The notes beneath the pieces are model-generated. The model was not told where the DNA came from. It ran no database searches and saw only the letters and a program-made list of their open reading frames with translations. Positions 1,515 to 60,427 of a stretch of 64,000 bases of DNA are shown in pieces. Position numbers and translations under genes: made by a program. This DNA is from Knoellia sp. Soil729 (GTDB lineage Bacteria > Actinomycetota > Actinomycetes > Actinomycetales > Dermatophilaceae). The stretch is from assembly GCF_001427985.1 (NCBI RefSeq), contig NZ_LMSA01000001.1, positions 67,629 to 131,628 on the forward strand, given 5' to 3'. How positions within the stretch are numbered: the stretch's first letter is position 1; each line of letters starts with the position of its first letter.

Positions 1515-1589
1515 CGACTTATTGCGCTTTTGTGCACCCGGATGAGCGGCCACACCGCTACGGGACATGCACAAAAGCGCAATAAGTCG
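1515..1589. repeat. Long inverted repeat between acpP and fabF
   Basis: Two perfect 22-nt arms at 1515-1536 and 1568-1589 (core ttattgcgcttttgtgca and its complement) flank a 31-nt loop. The loop contains a smaller stem (cccg/cggg outside agcgg/ccgct). There is no T-run, so it is not a textbook intrinsic terminator. It sits inside an operon, so partial termination or mRNA processing is possible. The arm shares ATTGCGC with the arrays near 28.7 kb and 37.8 kb. Confidence 0.85.
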
Positions 1590-2866: not shown

Positions 2867-4314
2867 TGGCGCACCAGCCCAACGAGTCCTCCGCCACCGC
2901 CTCGGCGGCGACCAAGCCCAAGCCGGACCGCGCCACCGACCCCCGCAACCCGCGGCTGCGCCTCCAGGCGTTCTTCGACGAGGGCTCCGTCGAGCTCATC
3001 ACTCCCGAGGACGACTCGGGCATGCTGGCCGCCATCGGCACCTGCCAGGGCGTGCCCGTCGTGTCCTTCTGCTCCGACGCCACGATCATGGGCGGTGCCA
3101 TGGGTGTCGCCGGCTGCAAGGTCGTCGTGGCGGCCTACGAGCGTGCGCTGGCGGACGGCATACCGGTCGTCGGGATCTGGCACTCGGGCGGAGCCCGCCT
3201 GCCCGAGGGCGTGGTCAGCCTGCACGCCGTCGGTGAGGTGTTCGCGATCATGACCCGCGCGTCGGGCAAGATCCCGCAGATCTCCGTCGTCATCGGTGCC
3301 GCCGCGGGCGGAGCGGCCTACGGGCCGGCCCTGACCGACATCGTGATCCTTGCCCCGGACGGGCGGATCTTCGTCACCGGCCCCGACGTCGTGCGCTCCG
3401 TCACCGGTGAGAACGTCGACGCTCTGCGGCTGGGCGGCCCCGAGCCGCACGGCCGCCGCAGCGGCGTCGTCCACATCGTCACCGACTCGACCGAGCAGGC
3501 CTACGAGCGTGGTCGCCAGCTCTGCTCGCTGCTCGCCGACCAGGGCACGCTCGACGTCTCTGCGGTCGAGGACTTCGACCTGGAGGAGACCTTCCCGGAG
3601 TCCGCGAAGCGGGCCTACGACGTGCACCCGGTCGTCGACAACGTGCTCGACAAGGGTGCCGACTCGATCGAGCTGCACCCGCGCTGGGCGCCCAACATCG
3701 TCACCCAGCTCGGACGCTTCGGCGGCCGCACGGTCGGTGTCGTCGCCAACAACCCGATGCGTCTCGGCGGGTGCCTCGACTCCCCCTCGGCGGAGAAGGC
3801 TGCCCGCTTCGTGCGCATGTGCGACGCGTTCGGCGTGCCGCTCATCGTCCTCGTCGACGTCCCCGGCTACCTGCCGGGAGTCGGCCAGGAGTGGGATGGT
3901 GTCGTCCGGCGAGGGGCCAAGCTGCTCCACGCCTTCGCCGAGGCCACGGTGCCGCGCGTGACACTCGTGACCCGCAAGACCTATGGCGGGGCCTACATCG
4001 CGATGAACTCGCGCTCGCTCGGTGCCACGCGCGTCTTTGCCTGGCCGACGGCGCACGTCGCCGTCATGGGCTCGGTGGCGGCCATCCGCATCCTGCACCG
4101 TCGGCGTCTCGCCGAGGTCGACGACGCCGAGCGCGCCGCCGTGGAGCAGCAGCTCGCCGACGAGCACGACCTCATGTCGGGCGGTCTGGCCCGCGCGGTC
4201 GAGATCGGCGTGGTCGACGAGATCGTCGAGCCGTCGGTCACCCGGTCGGCCCTGGCCAGGGCGATCGCCGAGGCACCCCAGCGCCGCGGCGACCACAACA
4301 ACATCCCCCTCTGA
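2866..4314 (+). CDS. accD: Acyl-CoA carboxylase beta subunit (carboxyltransferase)
   Basis: Transfers CO2 from biotin carrier protein to acetyl- or propionyl-CoA, supplying malonyl-CoA (or methylmalonyl-CoA) to the upstream fab genes. The protein is 482 aa. The N-terminal crotonase-like half has GAAAGGAAYGPALTD, an oxyanion-hole region. The C-terminal half has VDVPGYLPGVGQEWDGVVRRGAKLL and KTYGGAYIAMNS, typical of the actinobacterial AccD/PccB family rather than of E. coli AccD, as there is no zinc finger. A 30-residue Ala/Lys-rich N-terminus precedes the domain. Start overlaps the fabF stop. Which acyl-CoA it prefers cannot be told from sequence alone. Confidence 0.9.
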   Translation: MAHQPNESSATASAATKPKPDRATDPRNPRLRLQAFFDEGSVELITPEDDSGMLAAIGTCQGVPVVSFCSDATIMGGAMGVAGCKVVVAAYERALADGIPVVGIWHSGGARLPEGVVSLHAVGEVFAIMTRASGKIPQISVVIGAAAGGAAYGPALTDIVILAPDGRIFVTGPDVVRSVTGENVDALRLGGPEPHGRRSGVVHIVTDSTEQAYERGRQLCSLLADQGTLDVSAVEDFDLEETFPESAKRAYDVHPVVDNVLDKGADSIELHPRWAPNIVTQLGRFGGRTVGVVANNPMRLGGCLDSPSAEKAARFVRMCDAFGVPLIVLVDVPGYLPGVGQEWDGVVRRGAKLLHAFAEATVPRVTLVTRKTYGGAYIAMNSRSLGATRVFAWPTAHVAVMGSVAAIRILHRRRLAEVDDAERAAVEQQLADEHDLMSGGLARAVEIGVVDEIVEPSVTRSALARAIAEAPQRRGDHNNIPL

Positions 4315-4343
4315 CCCCAGGCGCCCCGACTTTTGCTCCCCAT

Positions 4344-4400
4344 GAGGGAACGTCGAGGGACCGGATGGGACCTTTCCCTCCGGACCCCCAACGTTCCCTC
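4344..4400. repeat. Inverted repeat at the accD / DUF3145 convergent junction
   Basis: Arms gagggaacgt (4344-4353) and acgttccctc (4391-4400) enclose an inner ccgg...ccgg stem. The segment ttccctccgg is present twice in direct orientation (4374 and 4394) and once inverted, the same two-plus-one layout as the 37.8 kb element. Placement between convergent genes fits a bidirectional terminator. Confidence 0.7.
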
Positions 4401-5322: not shown

Positions 5323-6525
5323 ATGGGTACCCGCCCCCTGTCAGCCCGTCCCCTGCTCGCCGCCCTCGCGGCCACCGCTGTCAGCCTCGGCTGCGTCGGC
5401 ATGGCCGCCGGCCCCGCACAGGCCAAGAAGCCCAAGCCGCCCGCCACGACCACGACCACGGCGGCTCTACCGACCTACCCGACCTCGATCGTGGGCGTGA
5501 GCCCGCAGGCGCTGGCCAAGCCCAACGAGTCCGGCCGCACCATCCGCAGCCTGACCATGGACAACGGCAAGTTCTACGTCGGCTACGGCGACTACATCGT
5601 CAACGGTGGCCCGACCGCCGTGAGCACCTTCGACCCGGCCACCTCCCAGTTCGCCGACTCCGGTCTGACCGCCCCCACCGAGGAGATCACGACCTTCCGC
5701 AAGATCAACGGCAAGCTCTACGCCCCGTGGACGGACCCGACCGGCTCGGCGACCTCGAACCAGGGCTTCTCCACCAACGCCAGCGGCACGTGGACCAACG
5801 AGTTCAAGGCTCCCGCCGAGCACGTCTATGACGTGGCCACGCTCAACGGCTCGGACCTGTGGATGGTGGGCTCCGCCAAGAATGTCGAGGGAACCAAGGG
5901 CGGCGCCGCTGCCTACCGCTCCACCGACGGTGGTGCGTCCTGGTCGCTCGTGGCCAAGGACACCTCGAGCGTCGAGATGGGTCGCGAGCGCTACTACTGG
6001 GCCGCGGCGCTCAACGGGAAGATGTACATGCAGGCGCAGGACGTCCTCGAGGGAGCGCCGCTGCGCGTCTTCAACGGCACGTCCTGGTCGACCGTCTCGG
6101 GCGCCAAGCCCTGCAACACGGTGGAGGCTCGCTCGGTCGAGGTCTACAACGGCCGGATCCTCTGCACCAGCTTCGGTGTCGGCATCGTCGCCTTCGACGG
6201 GACGAGGTCCACCACCGTCCTTCCCATGACCGACTGGAACGTGCTCGACTTCGACATCCCGGGCGACGGCTACATCTACGCCCTGTCCCGTGGAGGCGTG
6301 TACCGCAGCGCCGACGGACTCAGCTGGAAGGGCCTGACCACCGTGCCCGAGTACGCCTGGTCGATCGGCGTGCACAACGGCACGATGTACCTCGGCGAGC
6401 GGCTCAACGCCACGATCCGCAAGGTCGACGGGCTGAACACCAACGCGGTGCCTGCCGCGACGGCCCCGGCTCCGACGCCCACCGTGACCACGCAGTGCAA
6501 GGGCAAGTCCGGGAAGGGCTGCTGA
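5323..6525 (+). CDS. Secreted protein with sialidase/BNR-like propeller repeats
   Basis: Exported protein of 400 aa with unknown function. Residues 1-35 form a Sec signal peptide (Arg-containing n-region, Ala/Leu core, AQA-KK cleavage site), followed by a short Lys/Pro/Thr linker. The body is a beta-rich repeat domain. Two segments, YRSTDGGASWSLV and VYRSADGLSWKGL, are Asp-box (S-x-D-x-G-x-x-W) motifs, as in BNR/sialidase-like propellers. There is no obvious catalytic Arg triad or Tyr nucleophile, so a hydrolase role is not supported. The C-terminus ends CKGKSGKGC, with two Cys that could pair. ATG at 5323 follows GAGGAG. It is followed directly by a strong hairpin, so it is monocistronic. 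Confidence 0.7.
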   Translation: MGTRPLSARPLLAALAATAVSLGCVGMAAGPAQAKKPKPPATTTTTAALPTYPTSIVGVSPQALAKPNESGRTIRSLTMDNGKFYVGYGDYIVNGGPTAVSTFDPATSQFADSGLTAPTEEITTFRKINGKLYAPWTDPTGSATSNQGFSTNASGTWTNEFKAPAEHVYDVATLNGSDLWMVGSAKNVEGTKGGAAAYRSTDGGASWSLVAKDTSSVEMGRERYYWAAALNGKMYMQAQDVLEGAPLRVFNGTSWSTVSGAKPCNTVEARSVEVYNGRILCTSFGVGIVAFDGTRSTTVLPMTDWNVLDFDIPGDGYIYALSRGGVYRSADGLSWKGLTTVPEYAWSIGVHNGTMYLGERLNATIRKVDGLNTNAVPAATAPAPTPTVTTQCKGKSGKGC

Positions 6526-8996: not shown

Positions 8997-9042
8997 GACG
9001 AGGTATGCCGCCCGCTCTCGTGGGCGGGCGGCATACCTCGTC
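8997..9042 (+). terminator. Intra-operon hairpin between gluB and gluC
   Basis: Perfect 19-bp arms (8997-9015 and 9024-9042) around an 8-nt loop, beginning 11 bp after the gluB stop. Probably a partial terminator or mRNA stabiliser. Each arm contains the octamer GTATGCCG/CGGCATAC that is enriched through this window. Confidence 0.8.
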
Positions 9043-25533: not shown

Positions 25534-25571
25534 TTGACAACCATTCTCAACTGAGTTGAGAATGATTGTCA
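25534..25571 (+). promoter_or_regulatory. Promoter with two Zur boxes
   Basis: Two 15-bp 7-1-7 palindromes of the TGAnAATnATTnTCA type: tgacaaccattctca at 25535-25549 (one mismatch) and tgagaatgattgtca at 25557-25571 (perfect). A TTGACA -35 (25534-25539) and a GAGAAT -10 (25558-25563) are covered by the boxes. Spacing places the transcript start at or next to the znuA ATG, so the message is probably leaderless. Zn-loaded Zur should block polymerase. Confidence 0.85.
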
Positions 25572-27312: not shown

Positions 27313-28313
27313 GCGACCTCCTCGCACTTGACTTCATGCGCCAGGCGCTCATCGCAGCCGTGCTCGTCGGGCTGGCCGCACCTCTCGTCGGGGCATTCCT
27401 CGTGCAGCGGCGCATGTCACTCATCGGCGACGGCATCGGGCACGTCGCCCTCGCCGGGGTGGCCGTCGGGATCCTCACCGGTTCCATGCCCGTCTTCACC
27501 GCCCTCATCGCCGCCGTGGCCGCCGCCGTGGGCGTCGAGCTCATCCGTGCCACGGGTCGCACGAGCGGTGACATCGCCCTGGCGGTCATGTTCTATGGCG
27601 GCATCGCCCTCGGCGTCGTCCTCATCTCGAAGTCGACGGCGTCCTCCTCCAACCTCACGGGCTACCTCTTCGGCGCGATCCTCACGACGAGCCGCACCGA
27701 CATCGTCGTGTTCGCGATCCTGGCCGTCGTCGTCGTGGGGGTGACGTGGGTCCTGCGGCATCGTTTCTTCGCCGTCGCCAACGACGAAGAGTATGCACGG
27801 GCCGTCGGCCTGCCGGTCATGGGCTACAACATCGCCCTGTCGGTCCTCACCGCCGTCACGGTCGTCGTCTCCATGCGGGTGGTGGGGCTGCTGCTCATCA
27901 CCGCGCTGATGATCATCCCCAACGCCACCGCGCAGCTCGTCTCGCGCAGCTTCCGGAGTTCGCTTGCGTGGGCGTCACTCATCGGACTCGCGTCGAGCGT
28001 GAGCGGCGTCATCGCCTCGTTCTATGCCGAGACCCCTTCCGGCGGGACGATCGTGCTGCTCGCCATCGGGACCTTCCTCGTCGTGAGCATCGTCAGTGGA
28101 CTGGTGACGCGCGCCCGCCGCGCCGCCCACGACCGTGCGGAGCGTCATGAGCACGAGCACGGCCCGGTGTGCGGCCACCAGGCCATCCCCCACGGGGGGC
28201 ACGTCGACTACCTCCACGACGGCCACCGGCACGCGCCGCACGCGGACCATTACGACGAGCACGACGCGCAGGCTCATCCCGCCCCCCAGGACACCCAGGA
28301 GGTCTCCCGATGA
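27309..28313 (+). CDS. znuB: Zinc ABC transporter permease with His-rich tail
   Basis: Membrane subunit of the ABC-3 family, 334 aa, with about eight or nine hydrophobic segments and the conserved MSLIGDGIGHVALAGVA loop. After the last span (about residue 270), a cytoplasmic tail of about 60 residues has more than a dozen His with Asp, Glu and one Cys (HEHEHGPVCGHQ, HGGHVDYLHDGHRHAPHADH). Such tails on transporters are thought to buffer or sense zinc; here that is inference. ATGA overlap with znuC before and zur after. Confidence 0.92.
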   Translation: MSDLLALDFMRQALIAAVLVGLAAPLVGAFLVQRRMSLIGDGIGHVALAGVAVGILTGSMPVFTALIAAVAAAVGVELIRATGRTSGDIALAVMFYGGIALGVVLISKSTASSSNLTGYLFGAILTTSRTDIVVFAILAVVVVGVTWVLRHRFFAVANDEEYARAVGLPVMGYNIALSVLTAVTVVVSMRVVGLLLITALMIIPNATAQLVSRSFRSSLAWASLIGLASSVSGVIASFYAETPSGGTIVLLAIGTFLVVSIVSGLVTRARRAAHDRAERHEHEHGPVCGHQAIPHGGHVDYLHDGHRHAPHADHYDEHDAQAHPAPQDTQEVSR

Positions 28314-28735
28314 CCAGCCCGTCCGGCCGGGCCAGCGCGGCCGCCGCCGCCACCGCCTCCCGCCGACCCACCCGCCAGCGGGCGGCCCTGGCCGAGCTCA
28401 TGTCCGAGACCTCCGAGTTCCTCTCGGCGCAGGAGCTGCACGCCAAGCTGCAGTCGCGCGGAGACTCGGTGAGCCTCGCGACCGTCTATCGCAACCTGCA
28501 GGCCATGGCCGCCGACGGGGACGTCGACGCCCTGCGCACCGACGACGGCGAGAGCGTCTTCCGCTCGTGCGCGACGCAGGCGCATCACCACCACCTCGTG
28601 TGCCGCGAGTGCGGTCGCACCGTCGAGGTCGAGGGCCCGACCGTCGAGAAGTGGGCCGCCGAGGTCGCGCGGCAGAACGGCTTTGCCGACGTCACCCACA
28701 CCATCGAGCTCTTCGGCACCTGCACCTCCCACTGA
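28310..28735 (+). CDS. zur: Zinc uptake regulator, Fur family
   Basis: Fur-type repressor, 141 aa. Winged helix at about 15-95 (TRQRAALAELMSETSEFLSAQELHAKL, then SLATVYRNLQAM recognition helix), followed by the metal site HHHHLVCRECG (His cluster and CxxC). A second CxxC is absent; the C-terminus ends FGTCTSH with one more Cys and His. As the last gene of the operon it should repress, it is probably autoregulated through the boxes at 25535-25571. The ATG at 28310 overlaps the znuB stop. Its stop codon TGA lies inside the first unit of the 33-bp repeat array. Confidence 0.92.
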   Translation: MTSPSGRASAAAAATASRRPTRQRAALAELMSETSEFLSAQELHAKLQSRGDSVSLATVYRNLQAMAADGDVDALRTDDGESVFRSCATQAHHHHLVCRECGRTVEVEGPTVEKWAAEVARQNGFADVTHTIELFGTCTSH

Positions 28736-29050
28736 CTGCGCGTTCGGCCAGTCCCCCCGCACCACTCATTGCGCGTTCGGCCAGTCCTTGGGCACCACTG
28801 ATTGCGCGTTCGGCCAGTCCCTGGGCACCACTGATTGCGCGTTCGGCCAGTCCCTGGGCACCACTGATTGCGCGTTCGGCCAGTCCCTGGGCACCACTGA
28901 TTGCGCGTTCGGCCAGACCTTGTGTGCACTCCGCCTCCCTCCGCTGGCCGTACGCGCAACCAGTGAGTGAGTTCGAGCCCCAGCCATGTGCCGAACGCGC
29001 AATCAGTGGCGGAAATCCAGCCGCGCCAACTGGCCGAACGCGCAATCAGT
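28731..29050. repeat. 33-bp tandem array with inverted copies between zur and uppS
   Basis: Six forward units start at 28731, 28764, 28797, 28830, 28863 and 28896, an exact 33-bp step. Each has the core ctgattgcgcgttcggccag (first two copies vary by one or two bases) and a spacer tccctgggcacca. Three inverted copies follow at 28944-28964, 28987-29007 and 29030-29050, 43 bp apart, with different spacers. The zur stop (28733-28735) is inside unit 1 and the uppS stop (29046-29048) inside the last inverted copy. Forward and inverted units can pair into several alternative hairpins. Spacers are near-identical, so this is not CRISPR. Confidence 0.92.
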
Positions 29051-29828
29051 CGGTCGTGGTGGCGGCCTGGTCGATCGCGCCGCCGTAGCGGCGGTCGCGG
29101 TCGGCATAGATCTCGATGGCCCGCCACAGGTCTCGCCGGTCGAAGTCGGGCCACAGCGTGTCGAGGAACACCATCTCGGCGTAGGCGCTCTGCCACAGCA
29201 GGAAGTTGCTCGTGCGCTGCTCTCCCGACGACCTGACGAACAGGTCGACGTCGGGCATGTCCGGCTCGGGCAGGTAGCGGGCCAGCGTGCGGTCGTCGAC
29301 GTTCCTGGGCTTGACCCGGCCACGCGCCACGTCCTCGGCAAGAGCCCGAGCCGCGTCACCGAGCTCGGCCCGCCCGCCGTAGTTCACGCAGAAGTAGAGG
29401 GTGAGCCCGGTGTTGTGCTGGGTCAGCTCCTGGGCGACCTCGAGCTCCTTGATGACCGAGGACCACAACCGCGGTCGCCGCCCCACCCAGCGCATCCGCA
29501 CGCCCCACTCGTGGAGCTGGTCGCGGCGCCGGCGGATGACGTCACGGTTGAACCCCATGAGGAAGCGCACCTCCTCGGGAGAGCGCTTCCAGTTCTCGGT
29601 CGAGAACGCATAGGTCGACAGATGCGTCACGCCGGACTCGATGGCGCCCGCGACGACGTCGAGCAGGGCACCCTCGCCGGCCTCGTGACCCTTGGTACGC
29701 GGCAGCCCTCGCTGGTTGGCCCAGCGGCCGTTGCCGTCCATGACGATGGCGACGTGGCCGGGGACCTGAGCCGGATCAAGGGGTGGCGGCTGCGCTCCGC
29801 TGGGGTGAGCAAAGGGGCGGCTGGTCAC
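29046..29828 (-). CDS. uppS: Isoprenyl (undecaprenyl/decaprenyl) diphosphate synthase
   Basis: Cis-prenyltransferase, 260 aa, making the polyprenyl carrier for cell-wall synthesis. Motifs: [17 protein letters not shown] (catalytic Asp, diphosphate loop), [14 protein letters not shown], and the C-terminal [27 protein letters not shown] region. GTG at 29828 overlaps the recO stop (GTGA); the upstream in-frame ATG lies inside recO. Product chain length is not readable. The recO-uppS pair is conserved in actinobacteria. Confidence 0.93.
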
Positions 29829-37777: not shown

Positions 37778-37849
37778 ACTGATTGCGACTTCGCACAGTC
37801 ATCCCGCCCCACTGATTGCGACTTCGCACAGTGCGAAGTCGCAATCAGT
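37778..37849. repeat. Repeat element between GNAT gene and fahA
   Basis: Two direct copies of ctgattgcgacttcgcacag (37779 and 37812) are 33 bp apart, and an inverted copy pairs with the second: 19-bp perfect arms at 37811-37829 and 37831-37849 with a one-base loop. The core and the 33-bp step match the array at 28731-29050, although the inner bases differ. Lies between convergent genes. Confidence 0.92.
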
Positions 37850-60379: not shown

Positions 60380-60427
60380 CCTTGTGTGCCTCACGCAGGC
60401 GTATACGTCTGCGTGAGGCACACAAGG
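60380..60427. terminator. Hairpin between hemW and SDR genes
   Basis: Perfect 19-bp arms (ccttgtgtgcctcacgcag and complement) around a 10-nt self-complementary loop gcgtatacgt. With one mismatch the pairing extends to 60376-60431. It lies 8 bp after the hemW stop and probably terminates hemW. Confidence 0.9.

Follow-up and report, generated by a model that had tools for sequence, protein, structure and literature searches.

The gap between the convergent genes zur and uppS of Knoellia sp. Soil729 is filled by six direct and three inverted copies of a short sequence arm. The locus lies in a stretch of 64,000 nucleotides of this genome (the window), whose numbering is used below unless another locus is named. 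The gene names are presumptive, being those of the original prediction. The features of the locus are:

28310..28735, plus strand: zur gene, upstream of the array
28731..28751, plus strand: forward arm 1, ACTGACTGC..., whose ACTGA contains the zur stop codon TGA at 28733-28735
28764..28784, plus strand: forward arm 2, ACTCATTGC...
28797..28817, plus strand: forward arm 3, in the first of the identical units 3-5
28830..28850, plus strand: forward arm 4, in a unit identical to 3 and 5
28863..28883, plus strand: forward arm 5, in a unit identical to 3 and 4
28896..28916, plus strand: forward arm 6, the closest partner of inverted arm 1 (69 bp end to end, a length on the lattice described below)
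28944..28964, minus strand: inverted arm 1, ACTGGTTGCGCGTACGG with two changes
28987..29007, minus strand: inverted arm 2
29030..29050, minus strand: inverted arm 3, whose ACTGA contains the uppS stop at 29046-29048
29046..29741, minus strand: uppS coding region (used as the query), convergent with zur

The direct arms start at 28731, 28764, 28797, 28830, 28863 and 28896, a step of exactly 33 bp; for the inverted arms the last positions are 28964, 29007 and 29050, a step of 43 bp. These coordinates, together with the Tandem Repeats Finder result (28729-28916, period 33, 5.7 copies, 94% matches, score 334), uphold the six forward and three inverted units read in the original prediction, and each of the two stop codons does lie inside an arm as had been claimed, the zur TGA in forward arm 1 and the minus-strand uppS TGA in inverted arm 3. 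The tandem, near-identical units are as in a VNTR or minisatellite, the number of arms at the locus differing between species, and all arms are a locus-specific GCGCG variant, point changes aside. Units 3-5 are identical, spacer included, whereas units 1, 2 and 6 diverge; the spacer conservation claimed for the forward units is thus true of the former and fails for the latter.

For the RNA of 28725-29060 the folding energy is -181.7 kcal/mol, whereas shuffled sequences average -130.6 (z -10.15, with 0 of 100 shuffles as good), and the array therefore has the stable hairpin of a canonical intrinsic terminator. Across 28300-29800, a scan restricted to loops of 3-8 gave no terminator-like site with a U-tract, and a promoter scan gave none at the array; Rfam returned just two matches, both far under the gathering score. 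The array had been proposed as a possible "tunable bidirectional terminator", which would suit the place where it lies, but the scan revealed nothing of the canonical kind there.

A search for the core elsewhere in the genome, which the original prediction had called for, shows that it is dispersed. The 18-mer arm has 99 matches with up to 2 mismatches in the Soil729 genome (3,605,744 bp, 8 contigs) and 0 for the reversed control, and a broader core has 144 matches, again with 0 for its control. Because of this dispersal, local duplication is rejected as the whole story, and the refuting outcome named in the original prediction, which required a core present nowhere else, did not come about. 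Forty stretches around sites, together with the window, contain 56 clusters, comprising 38 single two-arm hairpins, 13 clusters with neighbouring arms in the same orientation and 5 lone arms. Most often the element reads (CG)ACT[G/T]ATTGC..loop..GCAAT[C/A]AGT(CG), and the two-arm pattern with a free interior occurs at 28 sites in the genome (control 0). Forward arms of the CCGTTCGG type number 76 in the Soil729 stretches; for 27 of these, array members included, no inverted arm follows at a distance of 30-85 bp. Two further sites of the family lie in the window:

1515..1589: second family element, with a motif-to-motif length of 71 bp, CG ends in addition and a ACTTATTGCGCTTTTGTGCA stem; the orthologous site in K. 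remsis carries a 49-bp element with a different stem
37778..37849: third site, with forward arms at 37778 and 37811 (a step of 33) and one inverted arm ending at 37849; a 39-bp hairpin with a GCGACTTCGC stem

The two-arm hairpin ACTKATTGC...GCAATMAGT was found in 9 of 9 Knoellia genomes, at 5-66 sites per genome, whereas 0 of 49 further genomes from the family and order have it, the collections searched having one genome per species. In a class-wide draw of 394 genomes it occurs in one, Soil729 itself, which is the only Knoellia of that draw. No paper on the ACTKATTGC hairpin family was found in the open-access literature. The zur-uppS array is an enlarged case of a genus-wide Knoellia family of gene-end hairpins. 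In stretch L042 nine forward arms follow one gene without an inverted partner (4080-4370), the longest run among the Soil729 clusters; five inverted arms follow another gene (5546-5694), and an atypical gene lies between the two runs. The open reading frames between the paired arrays of L042 and of L037, where an autonomous element might lie, are not obviously transposases by eye.

The basic element has two inverted arms of about 22-24 bp and measures about 38-82 bp end to end. Its anatomy was taken from 160 distinct elements of six species, identical copies within a species being counted once. Arm positions -1 to 11 are conserved as C G A C T K A T T G C S C, position 0 being G or C and in some elements A; positions 12-15 are variable even inside one genome. 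The stem is paired between position -1 and roughly position 20-22, and both ends are sharp. For the class of 57-62 bp, positions -1 to 20 are each paired in 70-79 of 79 elements, a number that falls to 36 at position -2 and to 24 at position 23; positions 12-20 hold only 0.3-0.8 bit, yet are paired. Terminal inverted repeats of the kind that MITEs have are thus present. As for the short imperfect palindrome that each REP unit forms by itself, a small dyad within the arm is suggested by eye for some arms and not for others. The pairing and intactness of this set are partly due to selection, because the elements were required to have at least n-4 of n arm positions paired (n up to 17) and came from stretches chosen by arm matches. 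Cleaner support is given by the named genomes, where no pairing filter was applied: among the matches listed, 22 of 22 in Knoellia pair at 7-9 of the 9 inner bases, and 83 of the 86 scattered ones at no more than 6. The regions from G002 (K. remsis), G003 and G007 (K. sinensis) were picked from matches of 33-63 bp only, which leaves their 70-bp class under-sampled. The G002 sample comprised 20 regions, with 34 of the 66 sites of that genome listed.

The elements are placed at the 3' ends of genes. With genes called by a home-made codon score, 89 of 159 elements lie between convergent genes, 56 between tandem genes, 10 between divergent genes and 4 inside a called gene; among 674 baseline gaps, 137 are convergent and 178 divergent. 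The median distance from stop codon to arm is 14 bp (234 gene ends), and at tandem sites the element is a median of 13 bp from the upstream stop versus 88 bp from the downstream start. These are dispersed extragenic palindromes by gene ends, in inverted pairs, as in REP and BIME families. A stop codon inside the ACTGA of an arm, as at zur and uppS, occurs at 17 of the 234 ends and is a minority trait across the family. A Rho rut signal was sought and rejected, C-richness before the elements (44%) equalling the baseline after stops (44%, 59 gene pairs). Mismatches on the sense strand at tandem sites comprise 18 G-U, 17 A-C and 50 others; since G-U is not clearly above A-C, selection on an RNA hairpin is not visible in them.

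Orthologous sites, defined by reciprocal-best flanking genes, gave 50 directed comparisons, in 38 of which an element is present on both sides; counted once each, these are 19 orthologous pairs. Over the 11 positions of the inner arm, 16 of the 19 pairs show differences, amounting to at least 5 positions in 10 of them, and the two arms of any one of these elements mismatch each other at 0-2 of the 11: the arms covary. In just 5 of the 19 are the two lengths within 3 bp of each other. One gene pair in three species (L030, L228 and L256) has three different stems. The element thus retains its place and its pairing while its sequence and length step change. In 12 of the 50 directed comparisons no element was counted on the other side; true empty sites are fewer than 12, because at several of these there is a lone arm or a related hairpin, or else an identical copy that had been removed by de-duplication.

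Length changes by steps of about one turn of the DNA helix. Motif-to-motif lengths in the 160-element set are 38-42, 48-54, 56-62, 69-73 and 80-81 bp, with one at 114 and none at 43-47 or 63-68. The class means are 39.2, 49.8, 60.4, 70.6 and 80.5, so that the clusters near 39, 50, 60, 71 and 81 form a lattice of about 10.7 bp, from which 54, 56 and 114 in this set, and two further 63-bp sites of G005 outside it, depart. At 10.7 bp the phasing statistic R is 0.80 (n=159, motif-defined ends). Counting each species-by-length value once gives 0.65 (n=49), and not one of 2000 uniform nulls (largest 0.454) attains the best R of these values over periods of 8-14; distinct species-by-stem-by-length values give 0.77 (n=119). 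The claim of phasing rests on motif-defined ends, because with pairing-defined ends it is weak (R 0.235 for the Knoellia family, 0.10 for other hairpins). A control hairpin family from the same DNA, GTATGCCG, has R 0.09 at 10.7 bp (n=40; best 0.34, at 8.0) and 0.08 after a pairing filter (n=38), a control limited by having 26 of its 40 lengths within 26-42 bp and 11 chance-like pairs 80-109 bp apart.

Arms in the same orientation are spaced in a similar manner. Direct-arm distances, with every pair counted and arrays thus contributing multiples, cluster at 31-33, 41-44, 52-55 and 64-66 bp (R 0.68 at 11.0), and others are 23-25, 29, 46 and 57-62 bp, of which the steps of 23-25, 29 and 46 are off the lattice. 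Tail-to-tail distances are 3-4, 14-15, 22-23, 57-59 and 68 bp, and most of the 16 fall on the same lattice. The period is near the B-DNA repeat, which would be consistent with double-stranded DNA being read from one side. Spacing by about whole helix turns hints at a putative protein that grips the arms.

Other repeated hairpins occur in the same genomes. The GGTATGCCG..CGGCATACC family is dispersed (8997-9042 of the window, and intergenic places in L009-L281), and its lengths have no 10.7-bp phasing; hairpins with another repeated stem, CCTTGTGTGCC..GGCACACAAGG, are found at 60380-60427 of the window and at L040 1033. A near-perfect palindrome, TGACAACCATTCTCAACT/AGTTGAGAATGATTGTCA, lies at 25535-25571 just before a metal-binding lipoprotein-like gene; it resembles the consensus of a Zur operator, which would fit the zur gene downstream. 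A separate hairpin family, ACTGATTGCTATCAGTC..GACTGATAGCAATCAGT, of 52-54 bp, is found in one Calditrichia MAG (L074, L103, L104, L116, L117, L120, L139, L156, L159 and L161), with 8 of 9 inner bases paired in 10 matches among those listed.

A family with a different motif was reached through L307 2205-2281, a GTCGAGTGG-family locus with repeated arms. In G024, from another genus of the taxonomic family to which Knoellia belongs, lengths of 26-56 bp were allowed in the search for the GTCGAGTGG...CCACTCGAC motif, and each of the 16 sites is 33, 42-43 or 52-53 bp long, several of the sites being tandem neighbours and hence non-independent. G025 has five GTCGAGTGG-type sites with lengths of 34, 34, 48, 54 and 54. 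The motif is found in none of the other 36 of 38 genomes; the reversed control matched once or twice in each of four of them, so a single match means little. These lengths suggest that the phased-arm architecture may extend beyond Knoellia.

The zur-uppS locus itself was compared with its counterparts in the eight other Knoellia genomes, in none of which is an array present at up to 720 bp from the end of uppS. Both zur and uppS were found at six of the eight loci; in G002 and G003 no zur was found beside uppS, and the same gap is not established for these two. K. flava has a single ACTK-type hairpin with another stem directly after zur and about 600 bp further to uppS, and K. locipacati a single ACTK-type hairpin whose stem is unlike that of the array. 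K. sinensis has one hairpin with both outer arms altered to ACTTTGTG, its loop matching that of K. locipacati at 16 of 23 positions inverted versus 9 of 23 direct. K. remsis has a lone arm at the uppS stop, with the TGA inside the arm and a 10-bp hairpin alongside, and G001, G003, G005 and G006 have no arm, with 1 mismatch allowed, over this distance of 720 bp. In G005, G001 and G006 zur ends in CAC-TGA where no arm is present; the array therefore overlaps an older zur stop, and the proposal that it supplied or captured that stop, as an account of its origin, is rejected. Among 27 loci scanned in other genera, 22 have no perfect arm of at least 9 bp and five (L307, L295, L296, L305 and L308) have one; at 12 of the 27, where no zur was found, the scan covered 200 bp before the uppS end, and in three long gaps the first 700 bp.

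The G003 counterpart of a second array, L044, is a single hairpin that has the same arms. Given this and the absence of an array at the uppS loci of relatives, the zur-uppS array is most simply a local expansion in the Soil729 lineage, in agreement with the recent tandem duplication that had been read from its units. That the additional arms are a neutral, minisatellite-type expansion of the hairpin, without added function, is a real possibility, if short of an even chance. The identity of units 3-5, the array-free uppS loci of the eight relatives and the restriction of arrays to 13 of the 56 Soil729 clusters all favour it, but direct arms are also seen in other species, with spacings that are mostly 31-33 bp in K. 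remsis, and 32-35 and 53 bp in K. locipacati; apart from some exceptions, these are close to whole turns.

The reading that we prefer, with a probability of roughly one half, is that of a bidirectional 3'-end element that stops or insulates transcription through its hairpin together with a putative protein bound to the phased arms; in kind, it is probably a REP-like bidirectional 3'-end element acting as a terminator or insulator. The element would halt or insulate transcription arriving from both sides. A hairpin would form in the transcript of either direction and act at the gene end, and the putative protein would bind every arm as double-stranded DNA on one face of the helix. Additional direct arms, at steps of 33 and 43 bp (about 3 and 4 turns), could serve as further in-phase binding sites and would also provide alternative hairpin partners.

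If the elements are instead selfish DNA of the REP or MITE type, the arms would be recognition ends for a transposase, the spacing would result from joining two ends on very short DNA, the 3'-end position would reflect tolerated or targeted insertion, and any terminator effect would be incidental. Stem subfamilies that appear by eye to be amplified in each genome, inverted pairs and tandem arrays like those of BIMEs, and occupancy that varies among species (the 12 of 50 comparisons above, the true empty sites being fewer) would all suit such an origin. RAYT was sought and rejected, however: the genome-wide transposase search, which covered the Y1_Tnp family (PF01797), was positive in 0 of 9 Knoellia genomes at E up to 0.001, the control being positive in 5 of 14 named genomes. 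Target duplication was seen in at most 3 of 155 elements at any length of 3-9 bp, a 2-bp CG/CG match at 95 of the 155 being part of the palindrome. No transposase was seen by eye between the paired arrays of L042 or L037, and the same gene ends retain the element though stem and length change. A selfish origin is, on this evidence, on the unlikely side.

The mechanism by which transcription is stopped in GC-rich actinobacteria is, to our knowledge, unsettled. U-tracts are weak in Streptomyces terminators, and a terminator without Us is credible because those terminators are reported as long, stable, U-poor hairpins with covariation (PMC12207403). The Knoellia element might accordingly be a plain RNA hairpin terminator of the GC-rich actinobacterial type, with a long stem of free sequence and a length lattice that is the by-product of a few inherited loop types. 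The location of elements after stops and between convergent genes is as expected of one, and many elements of 57-62 bp have a common loop like GCTCGCTG(G)CGCTCGC, as judged by eye. About eleven outer positions are nevertheless conserved in six species, which a free stem would not need; the steps between direct arms are mostly phased as well, species-by-stem-by-length values remain phased (R 0.77, n=119), and a G-U excess is not clear. We regard a plain terminator as unlikely. A DNA uptake sequence or chromosome-organising site is highly improbable: the family is dispersed, with a conserved core and inverted pairs at gene ends, but classic uptake sequences are far more numerous per genome than the 144 core matches of Soil729, and the stems vary between loci. 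A comparable arrangement has been reported for uptake sequences within terminators (PMC2267715).

The bidirectional 3'-end element with an arm-binding protein may be extended to a broader, doubtful proposal. An Intrasporangiaceae lineage would mark its gene ends with genus-specific palindromes, each read on one helix face by a cognate protein, as a protein-dependent bidirectional terminator or insulator that would be a bacterial counterpart of the Pol I terminator arrays. Site sequences would drift with the protein while hairpin and phase were kept, and the other genus, with its GTCGAGTGG motif, would have the same architecture. The element keeps its place, pairing and phase despite the turnover of its stem, which offers a natural test of which feature matters, and the phasing predicts a specific DNA-binding partner.

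Among known systems, the eukaryotic Pol I terminator arrays (Sal boxes, the sites of the TTF-I protein) likewise have repeated short sites just after a gene in a fixed orientation; the Knoellia arms are bacterial, are inverted to form hairpins and would bind a putative protein, and the likeness is one of resemblance only. MITEs are by definition short, dispersed, bounded by terminal inverted repeats and amplified in subfamilies, all of which the Knoellia elements share, but these were found with neither target duplication nor, among Y1_Tnp genes and the open reading frames between the arrays of L042 and L037, a related transposase, and their stems turn over at fixed places. The U-poor terminators of GC-rich actinobacteria have in common with them long stable hairpins, few Us and pair covariation (PMC12207403). 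The Knoellia element differs in its shared outer motif of about 11 bp, its palindromic two-way use, its helical spacing and its arrays of direct-repeat arms, and its role in termination is putative. REPs also have their place at gene ends. They and BIMEs, with RAYT, are like the Knoellia family in being dispersed extragenic palindromes in inverted pairs and tandem arrays, with species-specific sequence families, and the feet of REP hairpins are of the GTAG or TGTGG type (PMC2817692). The Knoellia foot is CGACTKATTGC and not of the GTAG type, its long hairpin is made from two arms 38-82 bp end to end with phasing at about 10.7 bp, and no Y1_Tnp gene is found in the 9 Knoellia genomes. Because neither a RAYT nor the GTAG-type foot was found, the element is not classed as a REP; REP/BIME is the nearest known kind.
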